Source: Selenomonas sp. TAMA-11512 | GTDB taxonomy: Bacteria; Bacillota; Negativicutes; Selenomonadales; Selenomonadaceae | Length of the DNA stretch: 64,000 bases | Reading direction: 5' to 3' | Assembly: GCF_037076525.1 (NCBI RefSeq) | Contig: NZ_AP029018.1 | Location: 682,001-746,000 of the forward strand | In this document: positions 5,347 to 54,712 of the stretch, piece by piece | Layout: every line of letters starts with the position of its first letter | How positions within the stretch are numbered: the first letter of the stretch is position 1 | Translations under genes and position numbers: made by a program | The notes under the pieces: generated by a model | The model's database searches: none | The model's input: only the letters and a program-made list of their open reading frames with translations | Told to the model about the DNA's origin: nothing

Positions 5347-6108
5347 TTGGCTGCAACAACTGAATCTGCCGCCGTGGATACGATCCGGCTCTGGGAGGAG
5401 TATCGAGAAACCGGATCGACCGAGATCCGGGATCGAATTGTAGAGATCTATTTGCCGCTGGTCAATATCATTGCGGGCCGAGTTGCGATCGGGCTGCCCT
5501 CGCACGTCGACCGCGATGATTTGATATCGAGCGGTTTTTTTGGGTTATTGGATGCCATTGAGCGTTATGAGCCTTCTCGAGGAAATAAATTTGAAACGTA
5601 CGGCGGGCTCCGGATTCGAGGCGCTATGCTTGACTATCTTCGTTCGATCGATTGGATTCCCGTATCCAAGAGACAGAAAATTCGACGATATGAGCAGGCT
5701 GTCGCCACGCTGGAAGGCCGACTCGGGCGTTCCGCGAGAGATGCGGAGGTTGCCGCGGAACTGCAAATCTCCATGGAAGAGCTCAATGATCTGATCAACC
5801 AGTCCAACGTGGCAACGATCATCCCCTTGGAGGAATACCTGCGCAGTGACTCCCCGGTCGCACAGACCATATCTCCCGAGGCAAGTGCGGAGAAAAATGA
5901 GATCAAGGAGATCCTGGCAGGTGCCATTGACCGGCTGGGAGAAAAAGAGCGCATCGTGGTGTCCCTGTACTACTATGAAGAACTGACGTTGAAGGAAATC
6001 AGTCTGATATTACATCTATCTGAGGCTCGTATATCACAGATTCACACAAAAGCCGTTACCCGACTGCGTGGAGCACTCACTCGCATGAAGGCCAACATGA
6101 TCGAGTGA
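5347..6108 (+). CDS. fliA: Flagellar sigma factor FliA (sigma-28/SigD)
   Basis: A 253-residue group 3 sigma factor. Region 2 is clear (DDLISSGFFGLLDAIERYEP, then the FETYGGLRIRGAMLDYLR recognition helix), followed by region 3 and a region 4 helix-turn-helix (LKEISLILHLSEARISQIH). It directs RNA polymerase to late flagellar and chemotaxis genes. The TTG start is supported by a perfect AAGGAGG 8 bases upstream. The place at the end of the che operon matches sigD in Bacillus. Confidence 0.96.
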   Translation: MAATTESAAVDTIRLWEEYRETGSTEIRDRIVEIYLPLVNIIAGRVAIGLPSHVDRDDLISSGFFGLLDAIERYEPSRGNKFETYGGLRIRGAMLDYLRSIDWIPVSKRQKIRRYEQAVATLEGRLGRSARDAEVAAELQISMEELNDLINQSNVATIIPLEEYLRSDSPVAQTISPEASAEKNEIKEILAGAIDRLGEKERIVVSLYYYEELTLKEISLILHLSEARISQIHTKAVTRLRGALTRMKANMIE

Positions 6109-20975: not shown

Positions 20976-23024
20976 TTGAGAAACTGGAAGAAGAAGGCCT
21001 TGGCGCTTTCTGTGGGGATCACGCTCCTGTATCAATCGGCGGCGTACGCGCTCTCTCCGACCATGGCGGTGGAAGACGTTGTTCCCGGCATGCGGGGGAC
21101 GGCGTATACGATCATTGACAACAGTGGAGAGATACGCCCGTTCAACGTCGAGATTGTGGGTACGATGGATGGCGGTAAGGGAGGCGAGCAGCGCATCATG
21201 GCGCTTGCGTCCGGCTCGCTCATTGACGTTACAGGCGGCGCGCTGCAGGGAATGAGCGGCAGCCCTGTCTACATTGACGGCAGGCTTGTCGGCGCCCTCT
21301 CGGCCGGTATCAAGGGGATGGATCCGCACACGTTTCTGATCACGCCGATCGCCGATATGCTTGATATCTGGACTCTCCCTGACCGAAAGAACAAGACGCA
21401 GCTGGCAAACAGTATTGATCTCAGGGAGCGTATCGAGGAGAGGGAAAAGAAGGGGGACGAGGAAAAGGGAATCGATGAGACGTATGAAAGCCTTGAGAAG
21501 GCAGTCAAGTCCATCGAAGAGAAGTATAAGAAGCTCTTCGGAGCGAGCGATACCGCGGATGAGGAAATCTTAGTGGAAGAGAAACCTGCGGACGAGACAT
21601 CGCCTGCGGAGGAGTCCTCCGCAGGCGGCGAGGCATCCTCCGACAGCGTCGCGTCCGACAAGGAGCCGAAGAGCGCTGTCTATCTGTCGGGCTTTAATTC
21701 CACGGGCTTTTCCTATATGGAAAGGGAATTTAAAAAGATGGGAATCGATGCGCTCGATACGCCCGTGTTCGGCGCACCTACGGGAAATGTAACGACGCGC
21801 TATGACGCGAACCTTTTTCCGGGCAGTTCTGTCGGCGTTGCCGTCGTCTATGGCGACTTCTCCGTCGGCGCGACAGGAACCGTCACGGAGGTGGACGGCA
21901 AGCGGATCCTGGGATTCGGTCACCCGTTCCTGCACAAGGGCAATGTCAACTACTTTATGACGGATGCATCGATCGTCGGCACGGTGCACGGCGTATCGGA
22001 CGGCATGAAGATTGCGAACGTCGGGCAGATCATCGGCCGTATCAGTCAGGACCGCGAAGCGGGCATTGCGGGCACGCTCGGAGAGTTTCCCTCCGTTGTG
22101 CCGATTCGCGTCCATGTACTCGACAAGACGCTCGAGCGAAACGGCAGCTACACGGCGCACATTGCCTATGATGAGGATTTTCTGCCGCTTCTGTCGGCGG
22201 GCATTGTCTACGCAGCCATCGGCAAGGTCTCCGATGCGGTGGATGAAGGTACGGCGGATATCAAGTTCACCATCAAGACGGACATGTCGAAGGACGGAAA
22301 GCTCGAGCGCAGCAATATGTACTATATGCCGTCCGATGTCGGGCAGACGGCGGTCGGCGAGCTCTCGGCGCTCATGAACATCCTGAGCTCGAACGCGGAG
22401 CGCGAGGCGGATATTCTCGGCGTCGATATCGATGTAAAGCTGGAAAACGATCGTAAGACCGCCTACATTGTTTCGGCCGTTCCCGATCAGATGAGCGTCA
22501 AGCCGGGGGATACCGTCACATTTAAGACGACGATTAAGCCCTATCGCCGTGAGCAGGAGGTCCTGGAGATTCCCTATAAGGTCAGCGAGAACCAGCGGCC
22601 GGGCCGCCTCCATCTCGATGTGCGGGGCGGCGGATACATGCCCCCGCTTTCCATGCTGCTGCAGGCGGTCATGACGGCGAATCCGAATGCTGCCGTGGAG
22701 GAAGAGGAGCGGGAGACGACCGAGGAAAAAATAGAGAAGTTCCTTAAGATGGACAAGAACAACGAAATCATCATCGAGCCTTCCATTCCCGTCGCCATGA
22801 CGGAGAAGGAGCAGAAGAAGATGGTGAAGGAAGCCATCAAGGAGCACAAGCGCCGTATGCGGGAAGAAAAGAATAAGAAAAGTGAAAAGCAGGTCGACCT
22901 CCTGGACGCGAACGGGATGGAAAAAGCGGAGGATATGCAGGAAGAGGGAACAAAGCGCTATCAGGCTCCGTATATCATTGATAATGTGATTCACGCGACG
23001 TTGAAGGTTGAGGAGAGAAAATAA
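20976..23024 (+). CDS. Exported S55 (SpoIVB-like) serine peptidase family protein, halves apparently swapped
   Basis: A 682-residue exported protein: signal peptide (about 1-25), a segment with GMSGSPVYIDGRLVGAL (candidate nucleophile S94), an acidic coiled-coil-like insert (about 135-230), then a segment with SVGATGTVTEVDGKRILGFGHPF (candidate H316), a beta-rich region, and a charged C-terminal tail rich in Lys and Glu. The S and H segments match the SpoIVB peptidase S55 domain, but in SpoIVB the His part precedes the Ser part. TTG start after GAGGTGG. It overlaps mlaE by one base. SpoIVB signals in sporulation; here the context is the envelope. Confidence 0.78.
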   Translation: MRNWKKKALALSVGITLLYQSAAYALSPTMAVEDVVPGMRGTAYTIIDNSGEIRPFNVEIVGTMDGGKGGEQRIMALASGSLIDVTGGALQGMSGSPVYIDGRLVGALSAGIKGMDPHTFLITPIADMLDIWTLPDRKNKTQLANSIDLRERIEEREKKGDEEKGIDETYESLEKAVKSIEEKYKKLFGASDTADEEILVEEKPADETSPAEESSAGGEASSDSVASDKEPKSAVYLSGFNSTGFSYMEREFKKMGIDALDTPVFGAPTGNVTTRYDANLFPGSSVGVAVVYGDFSVGATGTVTEVDGKRILGFGHPFLHKGNVNYFMTDASIVGTVHGVSDGMKIANVGQIIGRISQDREAGIAGTLGEFPSVVPIRVHVLDKTLERNGSYTAHIAYDEDFLPLLSAGIVYAAIGKVSDAVDEGTADIKFTIKTDMSKDGKLERSNMYYMPSDVGQTAVGELSALMNILSSNAEREADILGVDIDVKLENDRKTAYIVSAVPDQMSVKPGDTVTFKTTIKPYRREQEVLEIPYKVSENQRPGRLHLDVRGGGYMPPLSMLLQAVMTANPNAAVEEEERETTEEKIEKFLKMDKNNEIIIEPSIPVAMTEKEQKKMVKEAIKEHKRRMREEKNKKSEKQVDLLDANGMEKAEDMQEEGTKRYQAPYIIDNVIHATLKVEERK

Positions 23025-27592: not shown

Positions 27593-27600
27593 CCGTGTAA

Positions 27601-27766
27601 TTAGAAAACACTGATAAATGCAGCACAGCCATCTTGGCGCATCTTTTCCGCTCTCTCTGCGTCGGCAAATCCTCCACAGAGCACCACTCTGCGTCCGGTT
27701 TGCCTCCTTGATAGAACGAAAAATCTACACCAATCTGACAGGCTTCATTTTATCAGCGCTTCCTTA
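27601..27766 (-). repeat. MITE-like element, copy 1 (~166 bp)
   Basis: Non-coding element nearly identical, in opposite orientation, to 39982-40149. Its right end carries the terminal repeat ending in GCGCTTCCTTAA; the left end is eroded (ACTGATAAATGC preserved, outer GGAAGC changed). Internal sequence differs from copy 2 at only about four positions by eye. It fills the gap between the tolC terminator and the tamB ribosome site. Strand is given relative to copy 2. Confidence 0.8.
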
Positions 27767-27784: not shown

Positions 27785-30700
27785 ATGAAAAATTCGAAAT
27801 ACATACGCATGGTAGCCGGTGTCGCCGCCATGCTTTTCATCGTGCTCGCCATTGTGATCGTCATGCGCATAAGCGCTTTCACGGAGGGAATCGCGCAATA
27901 CGCCGCGACGCAGGCAAGCGACGCACTGGGCGTTCCGGTCAGCATCGGCGGCGTGGAGGTCACATCGTTCCGCACGGTACATATCTCGGATATCACGATC
28001 CGAGACCGCGAGCAAAAGATGATGCTGGAGGCGCCGAGCGCCGATGTGGAGGTCGGACTCCTCTCCATGCTGTCATCGCCGGTCGGCTCCATTCGCACGG
28101 TGACCGTGGACGCGCCGAAGGCAATTCTGCGCGAGCGCGCCGACGGCAGCTTCAACATTGGAGATATCCGGACGAGCGAAGAAGGCAATCGTGATTTCAC
28201 CGGCGAGATCGTCGTCAACGACGCGTCGGCGGACATACATCTGCAGACAGGCGATTTCCTGGCGGAGCGCATTGGAGCGACGATTGATTTCGACGATCCG
28301 AAGGCACCTGCCGTCAAGGCGGCGTTTGCCGTGGACGAAGCGGAGATCGAACTGTCCGGCGTATACAGCGCGGAGGAGCAGACTTTGCGCATCCGGGGAG
28401 AAAACATTGATATTCAGCCGTATCTCGCCTTCCTGCCGGATGATTTCCTGCTCGGCGACGCATCGCTCCGGGAAGGGCGGCTTGATTCCGTAGATGTCGA
28501 ACTGCAGAGAGCCGGAGAGGACATCTCTCTGGAAGGGGATGCGCACCTTGTCAATGCCAAGATGCGCGTCCTGGAGACGGACGTCGAAGACGTCGAGGCG
28601 AAGGCGCACTTCACGGGCGAGGAGGCGCTTCTCTACGTCCGCGGCACAGCGGCGGAGCAGACCGCGTCCGCTTACGGGCGCATCCGTTACAGGGAGCAGG
28701 ATCCGAGCTTTAACTTCGTCGTGCGATCCGTCTCCTTTGATCCCGGACGGGTATTGACGAATCTGGATTACAGCGGCGCGGCATCCGTGCTCGCTTCGCT
28801 CTACGGCACGGTGAAGAATCCCGTCATTGACGGCGATGTGGAAGTTGCCGAAGGCGTCGCCCGCGGCATCGTGTTTACGGATGCCAAGGCGCACGTCCAC
28901 TTTGAGGACAGCCAGCTTTCGGTGTCGCGCTTCTCGCTGAACGCCTTGGACGGAAAGCTGGAGGGCATGGGCGGTCTGTCGGTGGAGGATCAGCGGTATC
29001 ACGTGCGCTTGAAGGCCGCGGGACTTGATGCGGCACAGCTTGCCTCCCTTGTCGGCACGGAAGGGGTCACGGGCGGACTCTCGGCGGATGTCATGGTACA
29101 CGGCAGAGGCGCCGACACGAACGCTGTCTCCGCCTACGGCACGGCGCACGGGGAGGGACTTGCCTACCGCGGCGTGATGACATCCTCATCCGCTTCGTCC
29201 TTCTACATCGCCAAGGGCAGCGTTCACTTTGACTATCTCGGCTTTGATTTTGCCGATGGAGGCAGCCTTGCCGTCGAGGGAGAAGCATCAAGAGAGAATC
29301 TGGCGCTCTCCTACTATGGTTCGGATATGCCGCTGGCGCTCGTCACGACGTTTGTTCCGCAGGCTTCGGCGGCAGGCCGTCTCGATGTGAGCGGGCGCAT
29401 CGAGGGCAGCACGGAAAACCCGTATGTCACGGCCGATTTCCAGGGGCGTGAGGGAGTCCTTTTCGAGCAGCCCTTTGACCGATTCACGGGACGCGCGGCA
29501 GGCAGCTTGGACGGCGTGGAGCTGACGGACTTCACGGCGGAAAAAAACGGCAAGATTACGTGGTACGCCAAGGGCTCCGTCGGCTTTGTCGGCGAGCGGC
29601 GCGTGCACATACAGCTGGATACGGTCGGCGCGCGCATGGAAGATATCATGGCGCTTGTCGCGCCGGAACAGCCGCTGACCGGCAATGTGGACAACATCAT
29701 CACGATTACGGGCACGTTGGACAATCCGAGCGCCGTGGGATACATTCACTTCTACGAGGGCAGCTATCACGGCTACTTCCTGACGGGCATGGACGGCGAC
29801 TACTTCATCGACGACGGGGTTCTGCGGCTGCAGGACTTCCACATCTTCTCTCCGCTGATCGATATGGATCTCAACGGCACGATGAAGAACGGGCAGCTTG
29901 ACATGGAAGTTGTCGCGCGCGATATCGATCTCAACCGCATGAGTGGACACCTGCCCTATCCGGTGGAGGGGCACGGCGTGTTCCTGGGCAGGATCATGGG
30001 GACGATAAACGACCCGCATTTTGACGGAATGCTTACGGCCGATCGGCTGCTCTTAAACGGGGCCGTCATCACGAATGCCCATGGCGATCTCCGCTATCAG
30101 GACGGGGTACTTCGCCTCTCGGATTGGGGCTTTACGCAAAACGCCGGACTGTATAGCTTGGACGCCGCGATCAGCCTGACGAATGAGACGGTCACGGGCA
30201 AGCTCGAGGTCGATGACGGCGATATTGCCGGACTCCTCTCGATGGCAAACCTCAAGAACGATGTGCTCGCAGGAAAGCTCAACGGCAGCATTGAGATGAA
30301 CGGAGAGTGGACGAATCCGGATGTCAAGCTGACGGCGACTCTCGATGAAGCTTCCGTGGCCGGCTATGGCGTAACGGATGCCGCCATGAGGCTCAAGTTT
30401 GCGGACCGCAAGCTCTACATTCATGAGCTCCATGCAAGGCAGGGCAGCGGCGTCCTGGCGGCGACGGGCACGGTGCCTTTCGACGGAGGCGCGATGAGTG
30501 CGCAATTCTCCTCGCAGGGCGTTGCGGCCGGTATGCTGACGAAGGCGTTCGGCTCGGATCTGCCCGTCACGGGCGATATCGATCTCGAGATGCAGTTCCG
30601 CGGGACCGTGGATAATCCGATTGTGGACGCCTCGCTCAAGATTACGGACGGTGGCGTCGCGGGCAGCAGCTTTGATATGCTGACGGGACTTTTCTGGCTG

Positions 30701-32095
30701 TCGGACGGCAAGGTGCGGCTCAATCAGCTCCTCGTACAGAAGGCTGTCGCGGAGAAGATATACACGGCAAGCGCCAAGGGCGAAGTCGGTGTGAAGACAC
30801 TGCTTCACGGAGAGAATTGGCTGGATTCCAACGACCCCATAGACCTTCACTTTATGCTGGACGATGCGGATCTGTCACTGCTTCCCGTTCTTTCTGACGA
30901 GGTTGAATGGGCGCTCGGTCCGATGGACGGCAGGGTCGATGTCCGCGGCACGATGGCTTCTCCGCAGATGGACGGCTATGTCGGCTTCAACGACGGAGCT
31001 GTGAAACTCAAGCACCTCGAGCGGCCTTTCCGTGATATGCAGGGACGCATCGCTGTGGACGGCAATCGCGTCACATTGGAGGATTTCCGGGGATCGCTCG
31101 GTGAGGGCAGCTACCAGGGAACGGGAACGGCACGGCTCTCGGGCGGTTCGGTGAGGGACTATCATCTCGATATTACGGCGGATAAGCTCGGCATCGAGAG
31201 TAGTTTCTATCGCGGTCCGCTCTCCGCGGAGATGCACGTCTCGGAGGGAGATTTCTACGGACAGACGCTGCCGAAGATACAGGCAAGCGCAAACCTCGAG
31301 AACGCATTGATCTCCGTGCCGACGATTCCGGATACCGACAGCGAACTTCCGCATGTCATCCTTGATCTCGATGTGGACATGGGACGAGGCGTGCACTTCT
31401 ACAGCTCGCAGCTCTATGATATATGGCTTGTGGGCAGAGCGCACTTTGGTGGGACGACGAGATACGTCTCACCGTCCGGCTCGATCAGCGTCAGGAAGGG
31501 GAACTTTACCTACAATACGAAGCGCTTTACCATTCGCGACGGGGAAGCGTACTTCAACCAGGTCGAATCCTTCCTGCCGAGCATATCCATGCATGCGGAC
31601 ACGCGCGTCGGTAAGACGCGTGTCTACATCGAATTGGAAGGGCCTCTGTCCGCCATGGATGTTCGGCTGACATCGAGTCCCGAGATGAGCGAGACGGAGA
31701 TCTTGAAGCTGCTGACGTTCCAGACGACGGATACAAGCGACATGGATGTGACGGCATCGCTCCTGAACTTCGGCCTATCCATGACGCTCCTGAGCAGCAT
31801 TGAAGACGCCATGCGCAATTCGCTGGGCATCGATGAGTTCCGCATCGCCGGCGAAGAGGCGGACAGCCGGAGACGATCAAACGAAGACCCGGACAGCGGC
31901 CGCGTGGAATACAATGTAGAATTGGGCAAGTACGTGGGTGAGAAGTGGATGCTGCGCTATAAGTTCGGCATCGGCAACGATACGCAGGAATACGGCGTGC
32001 GATACGATATGGATGATCGCTTCAGCTTGTACACGGGGCGTGATGAGGACGCGAAGGCGAATGTCTTCGGGCTTGAGGCGCGCATCCGGTTTTAG
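27785..32095 (+). CDS. tamB: TamB-like translocation and assembly module / lipid bridge protein
   Basis: A 1436-residue AsmA-like protein with one N-terminal membrane helix (about 8-28), more than a thousand residues of repeated beta-strand segments, and the C-terminal DUF490/TamB domain (about 1150-1436) with ITADKLGIESSFYRGPLSAEM-type repeats and LGKYVGEKWMLRYKFGI near the end. It finishes in ARIRF, a terminal Phe as in TamB. TamB proteins are thought to form hydrophobic grooves that carry phospholipid across the periplasm and help outer-membrane assembly. ATG start after GAGGTGA. Its neighbourhood with mlaEFD and bamA is typical of diderm Firmicutes. Confidence 0.95.
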   Translation: MKNSKYIRMVAGVAAMLFIVLAIVIVMRISAFTEGIAQYAATQASDALGVPVSIGGVEVTSFRTVHISDITIRDREQKMMLEAPSADVEVGLLSMLSSPVGSIRTVTVDAPKAILRERADGSFNIGDIRTSEEGNRDFTGEIVVNDASADIHLQTGDFLAERIGATIDFDDPKAPAVKAAFAVDEAEIELSGVYSAEEQTLRIRGENIDIQPYLAFLPDDFLLGDASLREGRLDSVDVELQRAGEDISLEGDAHLVNAKMRVLETDVEDVEAKAHFTGEEALLYVRGTAAEQTASAYGRIRYREQDPSFNFVVRSVSFDPGRVLTNLDYSGAASVLASLYGTVKNPVIDGDVEVAEGVARGIVFTDAKAHVHFEDSQLSVSRFSLNALDGKLEGMGGLSVEDQRYHVRLKAAGLDAAQLASLVGTEGVTGGLSADVMVHGRGADTNAVSAYGTAHGEGLAYRGVMTSSSASSFYIAKGSVHFDYLGFDFADGGSLAVEGEASRENLALSYYGSDMPLALVTTFVPQASAAGRLDVSGRIEGSTENPYVTADFQGREGVLFEQPFDRFTGRAAGSLDGVELTDFTAEKNGKITWYAKGSVGFVGERRVHIQLDTVGARMEDIMALVAPEQPLTGNVDNIITITGTLDNPSAVGYIHFYEGSYHGYFLTGMDGDYFIDDGVLRLQDFHIFSPLIDMDLNGTMKNGQLDMEVVARDIDLNRMSGHLPYPVEGHGVFLGRIMGTINDPHFDGMLTADRLLLNGAVITNAHGDLRYQDGVLRLSDWGFTQNAGLYSLDAAISLTNETVTGKLEVDDGDIAGLLSMANLKNDVLAGKLNGSIEMNGEWTNPDVKLTATLDEASVAGYGVTDAAMRLKFADRKLYIHELHARQGSGVLAATGTVPFDGGAMSAQFSSQGVAAGMLTKAFGSDLPVTGDIDLEMQFRGTVDNPIVDASLKITDGGVAGSSFDMLTGLFWLSDGKVRLNQLLVQKAVAEKIYTASAKGEVGVKTLLHGENWLDSNDPIDLHFMLDDADLSLLPVLSDEVEWALGPMDGRVDVRGTMASPQMDGYVGFNDGAVKLKHLERPFRDMQGRIAVDGNRVTLEDFRGSLGEGSYQGTGTARLSGGSVRDYHLDITADKLGIESSFYRGPLSAEMHVSEGDFYGQTLPKIQASANLENALISVPTIPDTDSELPHVILDLDVDMGRGVHFYSSQLYDIWLVGRAHFGGTTRYVSPSGSISVRKGNFTYNTKRFTIRDGEAYFNQVESFLPSISMHADTRVGKTRVYIELEGPLSAMDVRLTSSPEMSETEILKLLTFQTTDTSDMDVTASLLNFGLSMTLLSSIEDAMRNSLGIDEFRIAGEEADSRRRSNEDPDSGRVEYNVELGKYVGEKWMLRYKFGIGNDTQEYGVRYDMDDRFSLYTGRDEDAKANVFGLEARIRF

Positions 32096-32136: not shown

Positions 32137-32781
32137 ATGCAGCTCCAAGATTATATGGAGGAATTGAAAAGGGTGGCGCTTCTGACCCGTGCGGAGGAAG
32201 CGGAGCTCTGGATCAACATACGGCAGGGGGACGCGGCGGCTCGCAGCAAGCTCATCGAGTCGTATCAACCGCTCGTGTTCAAGGCGGCGATCCGGCTCAT
32301 GAAGCTGCTCGATTCCGAAGAGGAAATCTTTGATATGCTGCAGGAGGGGACGGTGGCTCTCATAGAGTCCGTCGAGCGCTACGAGCCCGAGCGCGGGGTG
32401 GCGTTCAGCCTCTACGCGACACATCGGATTCGCGGCCGGATGCTCAACTTCCTTGCGAGCGAAGGACGCAGCGATATCGCGCTGCTCGATGACGAACGCA
32501 GGGGCGGCAGCCTCGGAGACTGCCTTCCGGATCCGGCTCCCGCCGTTCCCGAGCAGGCGGAGAGCGGCGTCCTAGCGGAGACCGTCCGCCAGGTGCTCGA
32601 TCGCCTTCCCGAAAAGGAGCGGCTTGTGTTGGACAAGCTTTACATGAAGAGCCAGCTGACGCAGGAAGTTGCCGATGACATGGAACTGAGCACATCCTAC
32701 ATACTGCGTCTTCAAAAGCAGGCCATTCGGCGCATGCGCGGGATGCTCTCCCGCTTTATGCGCCAGTGGCAGAGCGCCTAG
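32137..32781 (+). CDS. Sigma-70 family factor embedded in the outer-membrane operon
   Basis: A 214-residue sigma factor. Residues 10-45 look like region 1.2 (LTRAEEAELWINIRQGD), 45-110 are region 2 (EEEIFDMLQEGTVALIESVERYEPE, then FSLYATHRIRGRMLNFL), and 150-205 are region 4 with a helix-turn-helix (TQEVADDMELSTSYILRLQKQA). Region 3 is missing, replaced by an acidic Pro-rich linker (about 112-145). It is unlike FliA at 5347 and unlike typical ECF factors, which lack region 1.2. A perfect AGGAGGTGATG ribosome site precedes the ATG. It lies between tamB and a gene for a membrane protein. Confidence 0.9.
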   Translation: MQLQDYMEELKRVALLTRAEEAELWINIRQGDAAARSKLIESYQPLVFKAAIRLMKLLDSEEEIFDMLQEGTVALIESVERYEPERGVAFSLYATHRIRGRMLNFLASEGRSDIALLDDERRGGSLGDCLPDPAPAVPEQAESGVLAETVRQVLDRLPEKERLVLDKLYMKSQLTQEVADDMELSTSYILRLQKQAIRRMRGMLSRFMRQWQSA

Positions 32782-32794
32782 GGGGGTGAGAGGG

Positions 32795-33415
32795 ATGGCG
32801 GAACGGGACAAGTTAGCGCACAAGGCTCACATTCAAGCGGCGCAGAATTGGCTGGGCAAGGCCGCTTCTTCGCTCGAGGCGGAAAATGAAATACGAAGCG
32901 ATCTGCATCTCATGCTCGCCGAAGCGGAACTGCGCCGTGCCAACCGACACTCCCTCCTCACACGGGGGGTGAAGCTGGCACTGCCGCCGCTCGCGGCCGT
33001 TCTCATTGTGCTTGCGGGAAATGCCCTCCTTCATTCGGAATGGCAGAAAGATGCGCAGACGACGGAGCTTCCGGTCGTTGGAGCGGGCACACAAGAAGTT
33101 TTTCAAGAAAATAAAAAGCTTGCAGGAAAAGAGGAAAGTCGTGTAGAATACTTCAAAGATAGTGAAAATATGTCCGTCGCTCCAGCAATGACCTCACCCG
33201 ACACGAATGAGACGGTACAATCACGAGTATCAGCCGACGAGCGGTCTTTGCAGCCTGTTCTGCAGGAAGCCGCGCAGGAGGCTGCGCCGGAAAACGCTTT
33301 GACGGTGGAACAGCCGTCATCCGTGCTGGCGGAGAACAGTGCAGAAAGAAGAACTGTTCCCGATCCGGATATGCAGCAGCTGATGCAGTCGGCTGCTGTC
33401 ATCCTGCGAAAATAA
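32795..33415 (+). CDS. Single-pass membrane protein, candidate anti-sigma factor
   Basis: A 206-residue protein: a charged N-terminal part (about 1-52) with Ala/Glu-rich helices, one membrane helix (about 53-75, LALPPLAAVLIVLAGNALL), and a low-complexity extracytoplasmic tail ending in a short helix. There is no signal peptide or lipobox. It starts 13 bp after the sigma gene, with AGGGGGG overlapping that stop; the ATG at 32795 is preferred to the GTG at 32786. The layout (cytoplasmic domain, one helix, periplasmic tail, next to a sigma gene) fits an anti-sigma factor, but I see no zinc-binding ASD motif. Role is inference. Confidence 0.7.
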   Translation: MAERDKLAHKAHIQAAQNWLGKAASSLEAENEIRSDLHLMLAEAELRRANRHSLLTRGVKLALPPLAAVLIVLAGNALLHSEWQKDAQTTELPVVGAGTQEVFQENKKLAGKEESRVEYFKDSENMSVAPAMTSPDTNETVQSRVSADERSLQPVLQEAAQEAAPENALTVEQPSSVLAENSAERRTVPDPDMQQLMQSAAVILRK

Positions 33416-33453: not shown

Positions 33454-35370
33454 ATGAAGAGAAAACAAGTCTTGACCTGTGCCTTGGCGCTTGTGACGGG
33501 GTTTTCGGCATATGCGTCAGAAGCATCGGCGGAGACAACTCGCGATGTCATCGAGAATGCGCAGGAGATGAAAAACAGCGCAGCGGATGCAGCCGAGGTG
33601 GCTCGTGTCGAGGCAAATGTTAAGCTTGACAATGTAGAGTCTGTCTCCAATATAGATGATGAGGCGATGCGCAAGTGGCAGGAGAGCCGTCCGAAGGAAG
33701 AGGACGTTGCGTCGCGCAGCGGCGCACTTGCCGGACGTACCATCGTTGCCCTGAATATCGAGGGAGCGAGTGAGGCACAGAAGGCGGACGCACTTGCCGC
33801 GATTACGTCTCGTGTCGGCGATGCTTACAGCGTAGAGACAGGCGATGCGGATCGAGCGGCGATTTTCGATACAGGCTGGTTCTACGATATCTATCCCACG
33901 TGGGAAGAGGTTCCTGAGGGCGTGCGTCTTACGTATCATGTCCTGGAGAACCCCGTTCTGAAGTCCATCGAGCTGCAGGGCAATACGGTCGAGTCGACGG
34001 AGAAGCTGCTTGATCTCATGACGGTCAAGACGGGTACGATCCTCAATTCCCGTGAACTGCAGTCGAGCGTCGCGCGTCTCCAGGAGGAGTACCGCAAGGA
34101 CGGCTACATTCTCGCCAAGATCAGCGACATGAACATCGACCAGACGGGAGAACTCAAGATCTGGATCAATGAGGGCGTTCTTGAGGGATATGCGGTCAAC
34201 GGCAACAAGAAGACGAAGGATCGTGTCATCATCCGTGAAATGCGCATGAAGCCGGGCGATCCGTTCGATGTCAAGAAGGCGCGCCGCAGCATGCAGCGTG
34301 TATATAACCTCGGATTCTTCGAGGATGTCAACATGAAGCTCAATCCGGGCTCCACCGACGGCGCGGTCATTTTGGAGACGGATGTCGTCGAGAAGCGTAC
34401 GGGCAACTTCGGCGTCGGCGCCGGCTACAGCACGGACGACGGATTCCTCGGGATGGTCAACATCGGGGATACGAACTTCCGCGGTACGGGCGACGCCATT
34501 TCGGCATCGTACGAGTTTGGCGGTGATGCGGACGACGCGCACGGCTTCTCCTTCTCGTATCGCCGTCCGTGGCTTGACAGCAAGGAGACGACCGGTATAC
34601 TCCGCGTCTACAACCGTACATATAAGTACAGCGACTACGATGTAAAGGGAAACCTCAAGGAAAAGTACATGCGCAAGTACTCCGGCGGCGAAGTCACCCT
34701 AGGCCGTCCGATCAGCGAGTACTCGACGAACTTCATCACGCTTCGCAGCCGCAAGGATGAGTACAAGCGCCATACAAACGACGGCAACATGGGCGATCGC
34801 AGCAAGACGGAAGCCGGCCGCCAGTGGATCAAGGACAACTTCGGGCAGACGAACAGCGTCATCCTGCAGCACGTTACCGATACGCGCGACAACATCTACT
34901 ATCCGTCGAGCGGCAACCGCACCTCCTTGGAAGTCGAGGCGGCAGGTCTTGGCGGCGACTTTGACTATCGCAAGTATACGATTGAGGACAGCCACTTCTT
35001 CAAGGCGGGCAAATCCCAGGTATGGGCGTTCCGCGCGCAGTACGGCTTCGGCGACGGCAAGATCCCGGAGACGAACGAGTACCGCATCGGCGGACAGGAC
35101 AGCCTCCGCGGCTATCGCGACGATCAGTTCCGCGGCGATCATATGTACCTCTTCACCGCCGAGTACCGCTTCCCGCTCTTCAAGAAGGTGCAGGCGGCCA
35201 TCTTCACCGATTGGGGCGCCGCTTGGGATTCCGGATTTGCACCGGAGAACTCGAAGGGCAGCGTCGGCCTCGGCGTACAGCTTGAGACACCGGTCGGTCC
35301 GATCCGTCTCGACTACGGCCGCGGAGACGACGGCGGACGTGTCCACTTCAGCATCGGCGGTGCATTCTAA
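33454..35370 (+). CDS. bamA: Outer-membrane protein assembly factor BamA, three POTRA domains
   Basis: A 638-residue Omp85 protein. After a signal peptide (about 1-27) comes a polar helical stretch (about 28-90), then three POTRA domains (about 93-170, 172-245, 247-310) and a C-terminal barrel (about 312-638) with the conserved loop motif LRGYRDDQFRG and a terminal SIGGAF signature. BamA inserts beta-barrel proteins into the outer membrane. Proteobacterial BamA has five POTRAs; three is a reduced set. It is followed after 3 bp by an unidentified barrel-like protein. Confidence 0.95.
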   Translation: MKRKQVLTCALALVTGFSAYASEASAETTRDVIENAQEMKNSAADAAEVARVEANVKLDNVESVSNIDDEAMRKWQESRPKEEDVASRSGALAGRTIVALNIEGASEAQKADALAAITSRVGDAYSVETGDADRAAIFDTGWFYDIYPTWEEVPEGVRLTYHVLENPVLKSIELQGNTVESTEKLLDLMTVKTGTILNSRELQSSVARLQEEYRKDGYILAKISDMNIDQTGELKIWINEGVLEGYAVNGNKKTKDRVIIREMRMKPGDPFDVKKARRSMQRVYNLGFFEDVNMKLNPGSTDGAVILETDVVEKRTGNFGVGAGYSTDDGFLGMVNIGDTNFRGTGDAISASYEFGGDADDAHGFSFSYRRPWLDSKETTGILRVYNRTYKYSDYDVKGNLKEKYMRKYSGGEVTLGRPISEYSTNFITLRSRKDEYKRHTNDGNMGDRSKTEAGRQWIKDNFGQTNSVILQHVTDTRDNIYYPSSGNRTSLEVEAAGLGGDFDYRKYTIEDSHFFKAGKSQVWAFRAQYGFGDGKIPETNEYRIGGQDSLRGYRDDQFRGDHMYLFTAEYRFPLFKKVQAAIFTDWGAAWDSGFAPENSKGSVGLGVQLETPVGPIRLDYGRGDDGGRVHFSIGGAF

Positions 35371-35373
35371 GAT

Positions 35374-36771
35374 ATGAAACGACACGCGCAAGTGTTCGCG
35401 CCGCGGATACGGTTCGCCGCTCTCTGCGCAGGCAGGAGAGCAGCCTTCTCCGACTGGCTCGGCTTCTTGGTGTTTCATAGGAAAAACATAGCTTGTCACA
35501 TGCTCCTCGCGGCTCTGCTGTGGGGAATGTGTGGCTCGGGAATAGCGACAGCGGCAGAGGCTCGGAGCATTGAGCAGCTGACCGTCCGGGTAGAGGCAGC
35601 GACATCGCTGCCTCTTGCTGTAGAACGGCGCATGGAGTCGAGTGTGCAGGCGATCGCCGAGCAGCTCCTGCTCGGACAGAAGCTCGCCGCCTACGAAGAG
35701 CGGAGAGAAAAGGACGAGACTCTCATACGAGATGTATTTGATCGCGTGCTCGTCGGATACACCGTGTCGGAGGTCAGCATCACAGCCGATGTAAATACGC
35801 GGATACGGGTGACGCTTCTGCCGTGGCAGGATACGATTGAAGCCGTCGAGACGGACATCGCCGTCGAGAGCCTTGAGCCGCCGATGGCGTCGCTCGTTTT
35901 GAAGGACATGGAGGGCGTCGATGAAATCTATGCGGATACGCTGCTGGGGCTCCCCCTCGCCGCGACGGATTGGGTGCAGGGCGTCCTGAAGGAGCGTATT
36001 CAGCGCTATCTCGATGAACACCTTCCGGAGTTTCGAGCCGATTTCGACATCGAACCGGGACGGGAGGCGAAGGTAAAGCTCCTTCTCTATCCGCGCCTTC
36101 CCGTTATACGCAGTGTGGATCTGTCCATGCGCTCAAGCTCCATTCCGAACTTTACACTTCTGGCGTACCGCGGTCGGATGCAGCGGGAGGCGAACCATCT
36201 CCTGGGCGTGCCCGTTGCCTTTGTCAAGCGGCATGCACGGGAACTTGCCGAGGACATGGCGCATGCCCTCGATGAGGAGCCGGGTGTCCGCGCGCTCACG
36301 CTCCAGACCCAGGTCTCTTACCGCATCGGTGAAAAGACGGCTGTGGAGACACGCTCCGATACGAAGGCATGGAAGCTGCGGACGGAAGGATGGGCGGACA
36401 TCGGCAGAAAAGACGCGAAGGACCGGGATATTCGATTCCGCGTGCACGCGGGAAAGTACCTGTCCGATCGGGATGAGCTGTTCTATGAGCTTGACTTCTA
36501 TCCGCAGGAGAATCGCTGGCGGCATTTCTTCGGCTATGAGAGAGAGCTTTTTCCGCGTTGGTGGGCGGCGTTGAAGTACGATACCCATGAGCACGGCAGC
36601 ATCGCAGCCTTTCGCACACGGATCTCGCCCAAGCTGCAGCTTCGCTATGAGTACCGCGATTCCGAGCGCATGAGCGAGGTCGGGCTGTCCTATTACCTTC
36701 ATGGCTTTCTTCGTCTTGAGCTCGTCAAGGATGAAGATGACGAATGGCTTCGTCTGATTGGAGACTTTTAA
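35374..36771 (+). CDS. Putative outer-membrane protein beside BamA, unrecognised family
   Basis: A 465-residue exported protein of no family I recognise. The mature part seems to have a helical/beta periplasmic half (about 63-310), including a stretch resembling a POTRA fold (about 205-310), and a C-terminal section (about 320-465) of alternating amphipathic strands ending in LRLIGDF, a terminal Phe like a barrel beta-signal. The start is uncertain: the ATG at 35374 gives a 42-residue lead before the hydrophobic core, while a GTG at 35470 or ATG at 35500 gives a normal signal peptide. It lies 3 bp after bamA. Confidence 0.7.
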   Translation: MKRHAQVFAPRIRFAALCAGRRAAFSDWLGFLVFHRKNIACHMLLAALLWGMCGSGIATAAEARSIEQLTVRVEAATSLPLAVERRMESSVQAIAEQLLLGQKLAAYEERREKDETLIRDVFDRVLVGYTVSEVSITADVNTRIRVTLLPWQDTIEAVETDIAVESLEPPMASLVLKDMEGVDEIYADTLLGLPLAATDWVQGVLKERIQRYLDEHLPEFRADFDIEPGREAKVKLLLYPRLPVIRSVDLSMRSSSIPNFTLLAYRGRMQREANHLLGVPVAFVKRHARELAEDMAHALDEEPGVRALTLQTQVSYRIGEKTAVETRSDTKAWKLRTEGWADIGRKDAKDRDIRFRVHAGKYLSDRDELFYELDFYPQENRWRHFFGYERELFPRWWAALKYDTHEHGSIAAFRTRISPKLQLRYEYRDSERMSEVGLSYYLHGFLRLELVKDEDDEWLRLIGDF

Positions 36772-38985: not shown

Positions 38986-39996
38986 ATGAAAAAGACCTTA
39001 CAGGAGATTGCGGATCTCATCCACGGCAAGCCGGTCGGCGATGTCGATACCGTGATCACCGGTCTGAGCAATATATCGGACGCGCGTGCGGGCGATATCA
39101 TCTTTGCTGTCGGATCGCATATCGAAGAGGCCCGCGAGAGCCTTGCCTCAGCGGTGCTTTTGCCAGAAGGCGTGGACGGATTCAGGCAGTCCGTCATCCA
39201 CGTGCAGGATCCGAAGGCGGCGTTTGCCGTGCTGCTCGCGCACTTCACGCCGCCGCTTGAGCATCCCATGGGCGTCAGTGATCTTGCCTATATCGGTCCC
39301 GGCGTCAAGATTGCCGGATCGGCAAAGATCCTTCCCTACGCCGTCGTTGACGCGCACGCGGAGATCGGGGAAAATGTCATTCTGTATCCGCATACCTATA
39401 TCGGACAGTATGCCTCCATCGGCGATGACAGCGTCGTCCACGCGGGGGCTGTCGTGCGGGAGCACTGTAAGCTCGGCAAGCGCTGTGTCATTCAGAACGG
39501 CGCGGTGATCGGCGCGGACGGGTTCGGCTTCACGACGTCAGACGGCATCCATACAAAAGTTCCGCAGGTCGGCAACGTCATCATTGAAGATGATGTGGAG
39601 GTCGGCGCGCAGGTCGGCATCGATCGCGCGGCGATGGGCTCGACCGTCATCGGAAAGGGCACGAAGATCGACAACCTTGTGCATGTGGGGCACAACTGCA
39701 GCATCGGCGCAAACAACCTGATCGTCGCGCAGACGGGGATTTCCGGCTCGACCTCGACGGGAGAGAACGTCACCTTTGGCGGGCAGACAGGTGTGGTCGG
39801 GCATATCCATATCGGTGCGCACTCTACATACGCGGCGCGCAGCGGCATCATCACGGACATGCCGGAGGGCTACTTCGGCGCCGGCTTCCCTGCGCAGAGC
39901 CACCAGGAATGGCTCCGTATGCAGGCGGCGATGCGCCATCTCGCGGAATTGATGAAAAAAGTCAAGCGGCTCGAAAAGGAATTAAGGAATCGCTGA
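38986..39996 (+). CDS. lpxD: UDP-3-O-acylglucosamine N-acyltransferase LpxD
   Basis: A 336-residue LpxD, the third enzyme of lipid A synthesis. It has an N-terminal uridine-binding domain (about 1-100), a left-handed beta-helix of hexapeptide repeats (about 100-300) with the catalytic-His segment [11 protein letters not shown], and a C-terminal helix pair. The last residues and the TGA stop lie inside the terminal repeat of the MITE-like element at 39982, so the original tail may have been replaced. lpxC, fabZ and lpxA do not follow in this window. Confidence 0.95.
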
Positions 39997-40149
39997 TAAA
40001 ATGAAGTCTGTCAGATTGGTGTAGATTTTTCGTTCTATCAAGGAGGGAAACCGGACGCAGAGTGGTGCTCTGTGGAGGATTTGCCGACGCAGAGAGAGCG
40101 GAAAAGATGCGCCAAGATGGCTGTGTTGCATTTATCAGTGCTTCCCTAA
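39982..40149 (+). repeat. MITE-like element, copy 2 (~168 bp)
   Basis: Non-coding element with imperfect terminal inverted repeats (left TTAAGGAATCGCTGATAAA, right complement of TTAGGGAAGCACTGATAAA) and ends rich in TTA/TAA. It is near-identical to the reverse complement of 27601-27766. No transposase is present, so it would need an enzyme supplied elsewhere. It contains the lpxD stop codon. Confidence 0.8.
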
Positions 40150-53674: not shown

Positions 53675-54712
53675 ATGGTAATCACTTTACTGTCTGCCAT
53701 CTTTGTCTTCGGGCTGCTCGTGCTCGTGCATGAGCTCGGACACTTCGTAACGGCAAAGCTGACGGATATGCGCGTGGATAAATTCGCGATCGGCTTCGGC
53801 CCGAAGCTCTTTTCCTATACGAGAGGCGAGACGGAGTACTCGGTGCGCATCGTTCCTCTTGGCGGATTCAACGATATCGCGGGAATGGATCCGGAAGCGA
53901 ATACGGCGGGAAATCGGGGCTACTGCGAGAAGTCCGTTTTCGCGCGCATGTTCGTCATCCTTGGCGGCTCGGCGATGAACTTCATCCTGCCGATATTTCT
54001 CTTCTTCGGCATCTTTTTCTTTTCCGGCGTCAATACGCCGTCGACGGAAGCTGTCCTCGGGACAGTCATAGAGGGGCAGCCCGCGGCGGAAGCGGGGCTC
54101 TTGGCGGGGGATCGCATCCTCGCCGTTGACGGACAGCCCGTCGGCTCGTGGACGGATATGACGGATATCCTGAAGAGCGTACAGAATAAGACAATCGATA
54201 TTCAGTACAGCCGTGCGGACGGCGCGCCGACGACGGTTGCCGTCACGCCGATCCGGAATGAGAAGGAGAATCGCGCACTCATCGGCGTCACGGCATCGAT
54301 GATCGTCGAGCATCCGGGCTTCTTTGAGTCCGTTGAACTCGCCGTATCGCGGACCGTGCACATCGTGCGGCTGATGTTCACAATGCTTGCGGAGATGATC
54401 ACGGGAGATCAGTCGGCAGAGCTTGCGGGGCCTTTAGGCGTTGCACAGATCGCGGGAGAGACCGCGCAGCTTGGCTTTGTGCCGCTGCTCAATCTCACGG
54501 CGCTCCTGTCGCTCAATCTCGCCATCGTCAACCTGTTCCCCATCCCGGCGCTGGACGGCGGTCACTTCATGATGCTCGTCCTGGAGGCGGTGCGCGGAAA
54601 GCCGCTTTCTCCGAAGGTGCTGAACTATGTGCAGATGATCGGTGTCGGCATTCTCGTGCTGCTCATGCTCTACGCGACGAGCAGCGATGTGGGAAGAATT
54701 TGGGGCAAGTAA
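53675..54712 (+). CDS. rseP: Site-2 intramembrane metalloprotease RseP
   Basis: A 345-residue RseP/RasP protease: HELGH zinc site in the first helix (residues about 19-23), one PDZ domain (about 115-200), and the C-terminal metal-ligand motif NLFPIPALDGGH. It cuts anti-sigma factors and signal peptides within the membrane. The single PDZ is the Firmicutes form (E. coli has two). It could process the candidate anti-sigma protein at 32795; that is inference. Confidence 0.96.
   Translation: MVITLLSAIFVFGLLVLVHELGHFVTAKLTDMRVDKFAIGFGPKLFSYTRGETEYSVRIVPLGGFNDIAGMDPEANTAGNRGYCEKSVFARMFVILGGSAMNFILPIFLFFGIFFFSGVNTPSTEAVLGTVIEGQPAAEAGLLAGDRILAVDGQPVGSWTDMTDILKSVQNKTIDIQYSRADGAPTTVAVTPIRNEKENRALIGVTASMIVEHPGFFESVELAVSRTVHIVRLMFTMLAEMITGDQSAELAGPLGVAQIAGETAQLGFVPLLNLTALLSLNLAIVNLFPIPALDGGHFMMLVLEAVRGKPLSPKVLNYVQMIGVGILVLLMLYATSSDVGRIWGK

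Follow-up and report, generated by a model that had tools for sequence, protein, structure and literature searches.

Why should a sigma factor be encoded in the middle of an outer-membrane assembly cluster? In Selenomonas sp. TAMA-11512 (Bacillota; Negativicutes; Selenomonadaceae) genes for a sigma factor and a single-pass membrane protein lie between tamB and bamA, and a preliminary description of the locus, made from the sequence alone, had proposed that the two proteins sense outer-membrane assembly in a diderm Firmicute, as a sigma factor and its membrane-bound anti-sigma factor would. To our knowledge, little has been learned of how outer-membrane biogenesis is regulated beyond Proteobacteria. 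If such a circuit exists, diderm Bacillota would own an envelope-stress response, with a sigma factor tied to the BAM and TAM genes across Negativicutes and beyond, two protein families of unknown role would gain a function, and a test of outer-membrane retention or loss in the diderm-monoderm transition would become available.

Gene organization of the locus

We studied positions 32137-33415 and their surroundings within a stretch of 64 kb (hereafter the window) of the host genome, which is a single contig of 2.59 Mb. The gene order is tolC-tamB-sigma factor gene-membrane protein gene-bamA-ORF465-skp-like genes-lpxD. Matches to Pfam and NCBIfam placed tamB and bamA on the two sides of the pair and a gene of the RseP type elsewhere in the window, in agreement with the preliminary description. 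The genes from tamB to ORF465 nearly abut (successive spacings of 41, 13, 38 and 3 nt) and therefore are likely to form a single transcript. Rfam searches gave no element in the gap between the sigma factor and membrane protein genes, the only matches in the window being two tRNAs. The features discussed below are:

5347-6108: fliA proper, a gene separate from that of the bamA-linked sigma factor
20976-23024, plus strand: S55/SpoIVB-like secreted protein, a speculative site-1 protease (partial match to PF05580, E = 1.2e-10)
27785-32095, plus strand: tamB (Pfam TamB), upstream neighbor, probably in a common operon with the pair
32137-32781, plus strand: sigma factor of 214 residues (Pfam, conserved alignments, model of a relative)
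32795-33415, plus strand: single-pass membrane partner of 206 residues, candidate anti-sigma factor (model, hydropathy, alignment)
32798-32953, plus strand: hairpin of two helices in the cytoplasmic part of the partner, residues 2-53, conserved and modeled, the candidate sigma-binding part
32975-33031, plus strand: membrane helix, residues 61-79 (hydropathy; continuous helix in the model)
33056-33355, plus strand: linker of low complexity with many P, A, E and Q residues, about residues 88-187, predicted to be disordered (pLDDT mostly 51-58)
33365-33409, plus strand: conserved C-terminal amphipathic helix, residues 191-205 (pLDDT 91-94)
33454-35370, plus strand: bamA (Pfam Omp85 and POTRA; TIGR03303)
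35374-36771, plus strand: ORF465, secreted, probably with a periplasmic domain and a small outer-membrane beta-barrel (co-occurrence, alignment)
53675-54712, plus strand: RseP-type site-2 protease, speculatively making a second cut (TIGR00054, 292 bits, above its cut-off)

The secreted protein encoded at 20976-23024 has a GMSGSP (serine) motif N-terminal to an FGHPF (histidine) motif. SpoIVB has these motifs in the opposite order and, judged by its motifs, the Selenomonas protein may be an S55 protease that has undergone circular permutation. A homologue adjoins tamB in outgroup loci.

A sigma factor lacking region 3

The open reading frame at 32137-32781 has AGGAGG ahead of its start codon, and the encoded protein matched the Pfam models of sigma region 2 (E = 1.9e-15), region 4 (E = 7.5e-7) and region 1.2 (PF00140, E = 1.6e-5), with no Pfam match to region 3. 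Region 1.2 occupies residues 3-33 and region 2 residues 39-111, followed by an unstructured linker and by region 4 at residues 153-201. An AlphaFold2 model of a relative (locus L222), in which the sigma factor was joined to its neighbor, has helices for region 1.2, sigma2 and sigma4, and residues of about 111-130, the place that region 3 would occupy, are of low confidence (about 48-55). The domain composition first given for this protein, a sigma-70 factor with regions 1.2, 2 and 4 that lacks region 3, is therefore borne out by both the matches and the model.

Membership in the sigma-70 superfamily is clear, with scores of 56.9 bits for PF04542 (cut-off 24), 29 for PF04545 (cut-off 24.1) and 93 for TIGR02937 (cut-off 42.9). 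Sigma factors of the ECF type (group 4) consist of sigma2 and sigma4 only and have neither region 1.2 nor region 3; this protein has region 1.2 and falls outside the group, as had been supposed. It also falls outside group 3 as defined by FliA and WhiG, given that it lacks region 3 and scored 90.8 bits against TIGR02479, which has a cut-off of 189.6. By profile, the closest solved relatives are Streptomyces WhiG (6pfv, 6pfj) followed by FliA (6pmi, 1rp3). Judged by layout and profile, the protein is a FliA-like factor in which region 1.2 was retained and region 3 lost, rather than an ECF factor, since WhiG and FliA are nearest, yet TIGR02479 stays below its cut-off and region 3 finds no match. 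A broad sigma profile gave 264-290 bits for members (three positive controls) and at best 105 bits in 77 genomes lacking the membrane protein gene; by this gap in scores the bamA-linked sigma factors are a discrete family. The host genome has three further sigma-70 genes that are clear by similarity, one of which is the fliA gene of the window.

The membrane partner

The downstream gene starts with an ATG at 32795, a GTG at 32786 being an alternative. Its product has one hydrophobic stretch, residues 61-79 (19-residue score 2.18; the next best is 0.06), immediately preceded by a segment rich in arginine and lysine. Basic residues flank the cytoplasmic side of membrane helices (the positive-inside rule), and hence the N-terminus is placed inside. 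AlphaFold2, given 74 sequences, modeled a hairpin of two helices (residues 2-28 and 32 onward) with pLDDT values mostly of 95-97 and a helix across the membrane. Of the remainder, about 100 residues came out as disordered (51-58), and the chain closes with a helix at residues 191-205 (91-94). Hydropathy and model thus agree with the single-pass architecture proposed at the outset, a cytoplasmic domain, one helix and an extracytoplasmic tail. In the family alignment the hairpin is the most conserved part, with a consensus around HIRAARxWLGxAExSL...GDLxLMLAxAEL in which W19, L20 and A23 are invariant, and the tail is variable up to a conserved end, VPxxxMQKLMQSAGKxLR.

Searches of Pfam and NCBIfam with the protein gave zero matches up to E = 1. 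The 74 relatives gave no consistent match in these databases, a single one matching an NCBIfam 'antisigma' model at 4.3e-4. Consistent with this, the cytoplasmic domain belongs to none of the described anti-sigma families compared (the RseA, RsiW/zinc, FecR and RsgI types). Foldseek comparison of the model with the PDB gave no match at E <= 0.001, and sequence profiles retrieved only low-complexity or chance chains from the PDB. The partner therefore lies outside the known families searched. We considered a wall protein or a substrate-binding protein, and rejected both in view of the missing family match, the single membrane pass and the disordered tail.

Conservation and range of the pair

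We sampled 121 genomes of the family, 250 of the class and 398 of the phylum, together with 80 of 537 confirmed named stretches. In the family the sigma factor gene was followed by the membrane protein gene in 60 of 60 loci (50 genomes), and tamB ahead and bamA behind were both visible in 54 of these. The same order held in all 35 loci from the wider class and phylum samples; in one of them, L111, about 3.2 kb separates the two genes in an otherwise normal locus. Among the 80 named loci, which partly overlap these 35, both genes were found in 79, tamB ahead in 78 and a recognizable bamA behind in 71. Three named-type loci (L229, L235 and L237, of the UBP15/ADurb.Bin236 type) have tamB, the sigma factor gene and the membrane protein gene, with no bamA recognized in view. 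The linkage near bamA that the preliminary description would have expected in relatives is thus well documented by these profile searches.

Genome counts gave the same picture. Of the 121 family genomes 101 have the sigma factor gene and 98 the membrane protein gene, and all 20 genomes lacking the former also lack the latter. Three genomes at first had the sigma factor gene only, and a profile search recovered the membrane protein gene in two (G077 and G084). A rumen Selenomonadaceae record (L242) has the sigma factor gene, but the membrane protein gene, tamB and bamA were unrecognized nearby; this may be an assembly error or a displaced sigma factor gene.

The membrane protein profile matched 209 of the 250 class genomes and 39 of the 398 phylum genomes. 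Twelve of the latter 39 belong to the class and 16 lie outside it and have the hairpin; the other 11 matched by the low-complexity tail alone and were set aside as chance. In all 16 loci outside the class the sigma factor gene lies ahead of the membrane protein gene. The 28 true carriers of the phylum sample are all among its 101 genomes with BamA, and 73 BamA-bearing genomes lack the pair. Carriers include at least Selenomonas, Pectinatus, Megasphaera, Sporomusa, Pelosinus and unclassified Bacillota and, outside Bacillota, at least Candidatus Sysuimicrobiota CSP1-3 together with records labeled Armatimonadota, ANGP1 and UBP15. The range thus differs from the diderm Firmicutes to which the pair had been attributed: in the phylum sample 28 of the 101 genomes with BamA carry it, and it extends beyond Bacillota. 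Sequence and order persist from genus to genus and family to family and into at least one further phylum, so that the pair is no chance arrangement. In a quick tree made without bootstraps, the rows from Negativicutes and those of the Sysuimicrobiota type formed separate well-supported groups. Such groups are what old vertical descent would give, and transfer may be an alternative.

A third member downstream of bamA

The gene downstream of bamA, ORF465, was absent from the preliminary description, as were the end helix that tracks it and the promoter-like motif described below. In the family sample 101 of the 121 genomes have ORF465: 99 have it together with the sigma factor gene, 18 have neither and four have one alone. 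The genomes with the sigma factor gene alone are G083 (77% complete) and G100 (86%), and those with ORF465 alone, G082 and G105, are fragmented drafts with 7-8% contamination. The 18 genomes that lack both fall in six genera, four of which have other members that keep both. Outside the class, full-length ORF465 was found in none of 71 BamA-bearing genomes lacking the sigma factor gene and in six of nine that have it. Twelve BamA loci without the pair all lack ORF465, and the next recognized gene follows bamA after 147 nt at most; in 11 of them tamB adjoins bamA and in the twelfth no tamB was recognized. Hence the three genes around bamA, for the sigma factor, its membrane partner and the small putative outer-membrane protein, are in most cases retained or lost jointly. 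This joint inheritance suggests that ORF465 is a third member of the system, new here.

ORF465 seems to be dispensable, since five genomes keep the sigma factor and the membrane protein without it. These emerged from 115 loci with the sigma factor gene (the 35 and the 80, which overlap), 93 of which show bamA followed by skp or lpxD; ORF465 is present in 86 of the 93 and missing from seven, which belong to the five genomes. A short open reading frame beside bamA in a genome without the sigma factor and membrane protein genes (G391:C119:8663-9049) resembles ORF465 at its barrel-like end only and is a possible remnant.

The ORF465 N-terminus is of the secretion type; an ATG at 35500 is an alternative start, which may be the one with a signal peptide. 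By eye, the protein has repeated segments that look like POTRA domains and a C-terminal half with barrel-like strands that ends in an aromatic residue or leucine, and it probably combines a periplasmic part with a barrel in the outer membrane. Searches of Pfam (with 35 members), NCBIfam and the PDB found no relative. The reading as a second Omp85 protein was rejected, the hhalign probability against the BamA alignment being 0.9%.

The end helix of the membrane protein is distributed with ORF465. With duplicates removed, a pattern for the helix, fitted after inspection of the sequences, matched 75 of 75 proteins from loci with ORF465 and none of five from loci without it (Fisher p = 4e-8); on shuffled tails it matched 160 of 8000. 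All 50 distinct family proteins have the helix. An earlier pattern that forbade proline behind the helix matched 63 of the 75, and a weight matrix built from Selenomonadaceae only, which is too narrow and misses divergent helices, matched 60 of 86. Outside the class, the three genomes with the sigma factor gene and no ORF465 are precisely those with odd membrane protein tails, an observation that belongs to the same evidence as the 75 and the five and is no second test. Since helix and ORF465 are present or absent together, the plainest reading is that the helix would bind ORF465.

Proposed contact between sigma factor and hairpin

Coevolution was computed from 122 distinct pairs (effective number 95), and the top couplings between sigma factor and hairpin exceeded those of 60 of 60 within-clade permutations. 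The value was 4.92, as compared with 4.21-4.51 for the sigma factor with TamB and 4.22 for the sigma factor with the tail of the membrane protein. As the TamB control attributes most of the signal to shared history, we count the coupling as weak. The complex was modeled as one chain, in a locus where the sigma factor and hairpin genes lie in frame, and from a second joint alignment, the first having been dropped as its partner-only rows had aligned to the sigma factor part. This one-chain model has a pTM of 0.62, and confidence in the hairpin was about 81-92 versus 95-97 for the hairpin alone. Because one-chain model and couplings are both weak, we keep it as an inference that the membrane protein is an anti-sigma factor.

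A promoter-like motif ahead of the membrane protein gene

Most relatives have 100-300 nt between the sigma factor and membrane protein genes, a gap that the host genome lacks. The sequence GGA[TCA]TATA occurs in 27 of 88 non-redundant gaps (60 shuffling runs gave a mean of 1.7 and a maximum of 6) and clusters 30-65 nt upstream of the start codon of the membrane protein gene. A two-block search on 73 of the 88 gaps (15 outgroup gaps were dropped), with 60 starts on the real set and 30 on each shuffled set, gave gc.ggtcA-N19-GAtTATAt at one fixed spacing in about 93% of the 73 gaps, with a log-likelihood of 286 versus 65-80 in five shuffled sets. An initial two-block search had paired a different block with GGAtTATA. 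The blocks do not match TTGACA-N17-TATAAT and are thus unlike a sigmaA promoter. An example of the predicted promoter, from Selenomonas ruminantium WCT3 (L173), contains GGATTATA. No such motif was found ahead of the membrane protein gene in the host genome, nor in some relatives.

It is a natural guess that the bamA-linked sigma factor reads this putative promoter. Among the best 140 of 164 sites above 13 bits in the set of loci, 43 lie within 250 nt upstream of the membrane protein gene, the kind of site on which the matrix was trained, so that this count is no independent test. The remaining sites of the 140 precede no recurring gene, and many lie where no gene was recognized. The window has four weaker sites (10033 and 36860 and, on the minus strand, 41066 and 49659), none of which seems to be positioned as a promoter of the bamA operon. 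Words enriched upstream of the motif in the gaps of relatives include AAAACAG (14 sequences versus 1.9 expected) and GATAATCG (8 versus 0.9), and perhaps are regulator sites.

Discussion

Our preferred reading, to which we give about an even chance, is that a single signaling line across the envelope, built around the BAM and TAM genes, runs from ORF465 through the membrane protein to the sigma factor. The cytoplasmic two-helix hairpin would hold the sigma factor at the inner membrane, and the disordered tail of about 100 residues would cross to the periplasmic part of ORF465, on which its end helix would dock, as their joint presence and absence suggests. This contact would be altered when the state of the outer membrane changes, the simplest cases being a failure of BamA to assemble ORF465 and an altered occupancy of ORF465. 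Either a conformational change or cleavage would then release or activate the sigma factor; candidates for the cleavage are RseP and the S55-like protease, both encoded nearby. Once released, the sigma factor would act, in most relatives, at the putative promoter before the membrane protein gene and thereby give more membrane protein, BamA and ORF465. Although the contacts, the direction of regulation and the signal are all inferred, we favor this line since it explains how the parts are built, why the genes are inherited together and why the end helix tracks ORF465, and it predicts exactly a helix-protein binding pair and a promoter read by the sigma factor.

Regulated proteolysis, the classical model behind the preliminary description, is a different reading, one we consider unlikely: once outer-membrane proteins misfold, the anti-sigma factor would be cut first in the periplasm, by the S55-like protein or a different protease, and next by RseP, with ORF465 merely a co-regulated outer-membrane protein. 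RseP is encoded in the window, and the S55-like protein has both GMSGSP and FGHPF and a homologue beside tamB in outgroups. However, the genes of both proteases also occur without the pair and hence are not tied to it; of the 12 loci that lack the pair, 10 have the S55-like gene adjoining tamB and an eleventh has it nearby. The joint occurrence of end helix and ORF465 would also be left unexplained. Alternatively, the membrane protein and ORF465 could be a structural bridge between the membranes that aids BAM and TAM, with the sigma factor regulating the operon and never touching its neighbor. A long linker and an end helix recall TonB and TolA, all three genes lie around bamA and the promoter motif sits before the membrane protein gene, as a bridge would have it. 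Such a bridge would not need the cytoplasmic hairpin, yet this is the most conserved part of the protein, and sigma factor and membrane protein stay paired even in the five genomes without ORF465; we therefore regard the bridge as quite unlikely. That the hairpin protein activates the sigma factor or recruits it to the membrane, rather than inhibiting it, fits the constant adjacency of the genes and the missing match to anti-sigma families, but is very unlikely as known membrane partners of sigma factors are mostly inhibitors, and the present data fit either direction of effect.

The signaling line would work like FecA-FecR-FecI or RseA, from unrelated parts. In the Fec system an outer-membrane protein with a periplasmic part, a single-pass inner-membrane regulator that meets the sigma factor on the cytoplasmic side and the sigma factor encoded beside it form the chain, and ORF465 (as predicted), the membrane protein and the adjacent sigma factor would take these places. 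Joint inheritance of the kind that marks Fec-type signaling was found with few exceptions, the outer-membrane location of ORF465 being a prediction. In contrast to the Fec sigma factor, which is of the ECF type, the sigma factor here resembles FliA and WhiG and has region 1.2; the regulator has no match to the FecR family, ORF465 does not resemble a TonB-dependent receptor by Pfam, and the linkage is to bamA rather than to iron uptake. Homology to Fec proteins was not seen, as 35 ORF465 members had no Pfam match and 74 membrane proteins no consistent one. RpoE-RseA(-RseB-DegS-RseP) likewise has a sigma factor with a single-pass partner in the context of outer-membrane assembly, and RseP is present here too, whereas our partner has no Pfam match, has a disordered linker and helix in place of a folded periplasmic domain, and goes with another type of sigma factor. 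FliA-FlgM and WhiG-RsiG contain the nearest solved sigma relatives, but the sigma factor here lacks region 3, and its partner is anchored in the membrane and shows no relationship to theirs by profile search. In the SigI-RsgI and SigW-RsiW systems of Bacillota, too, the gene after that of the sigma factor encodes a regulator that is anchored in the membrane and has a short cytoplasmic domain; these systems differ in that our partner has no Pfam or NCBIfam match to E = 1 and our sigma factor has clear regions 4 and 1.2.

A search of titles and the opening parts of abstracts of openly available papers gave no publication on the pair. Antunes et al. 2016 (PMC5007114) described the conserved outer-membrane locus, and 'sigma' is absent from the main text of that paper; in passages from PMC10665443 the word occurs only as the name of a supplier. 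In Poppleton et al. 2017 (PMC5491611) TamB and BamA of Veillonella parvula are Vpar_0526 and Vpar_0527, and these consecutive tags suggest that V. parvula lacks the pair. More tentatively, and with less confidence than in the signaling line itself, we propose an ancient outer-membrane surveillance system of Terrabacteria-type diderms (Negativicutes, several other Bacillota lineages and Sysuimicrobiota). It would be built from three protein families that, apart from the sigma fold, lack described relatives or function, with a small BamA-assembled barrel as sentinel, a tail spanning the periplasm and a FliA-type sigma factor without region 3, and would have gone unseen since it was lost in the model organism V. 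parvula.

A dispersed element near the locus

A MITE-like dispersed element of about 165 bp occurs in the window at 27600-27765 and at 39984-40143 (minus strand), and has at least 41 matches in the host genome (40 of 140 candidates scored). A relative of this element lies inside the gap between the sigma factor and membrane protein genes of loci L013 and L196.
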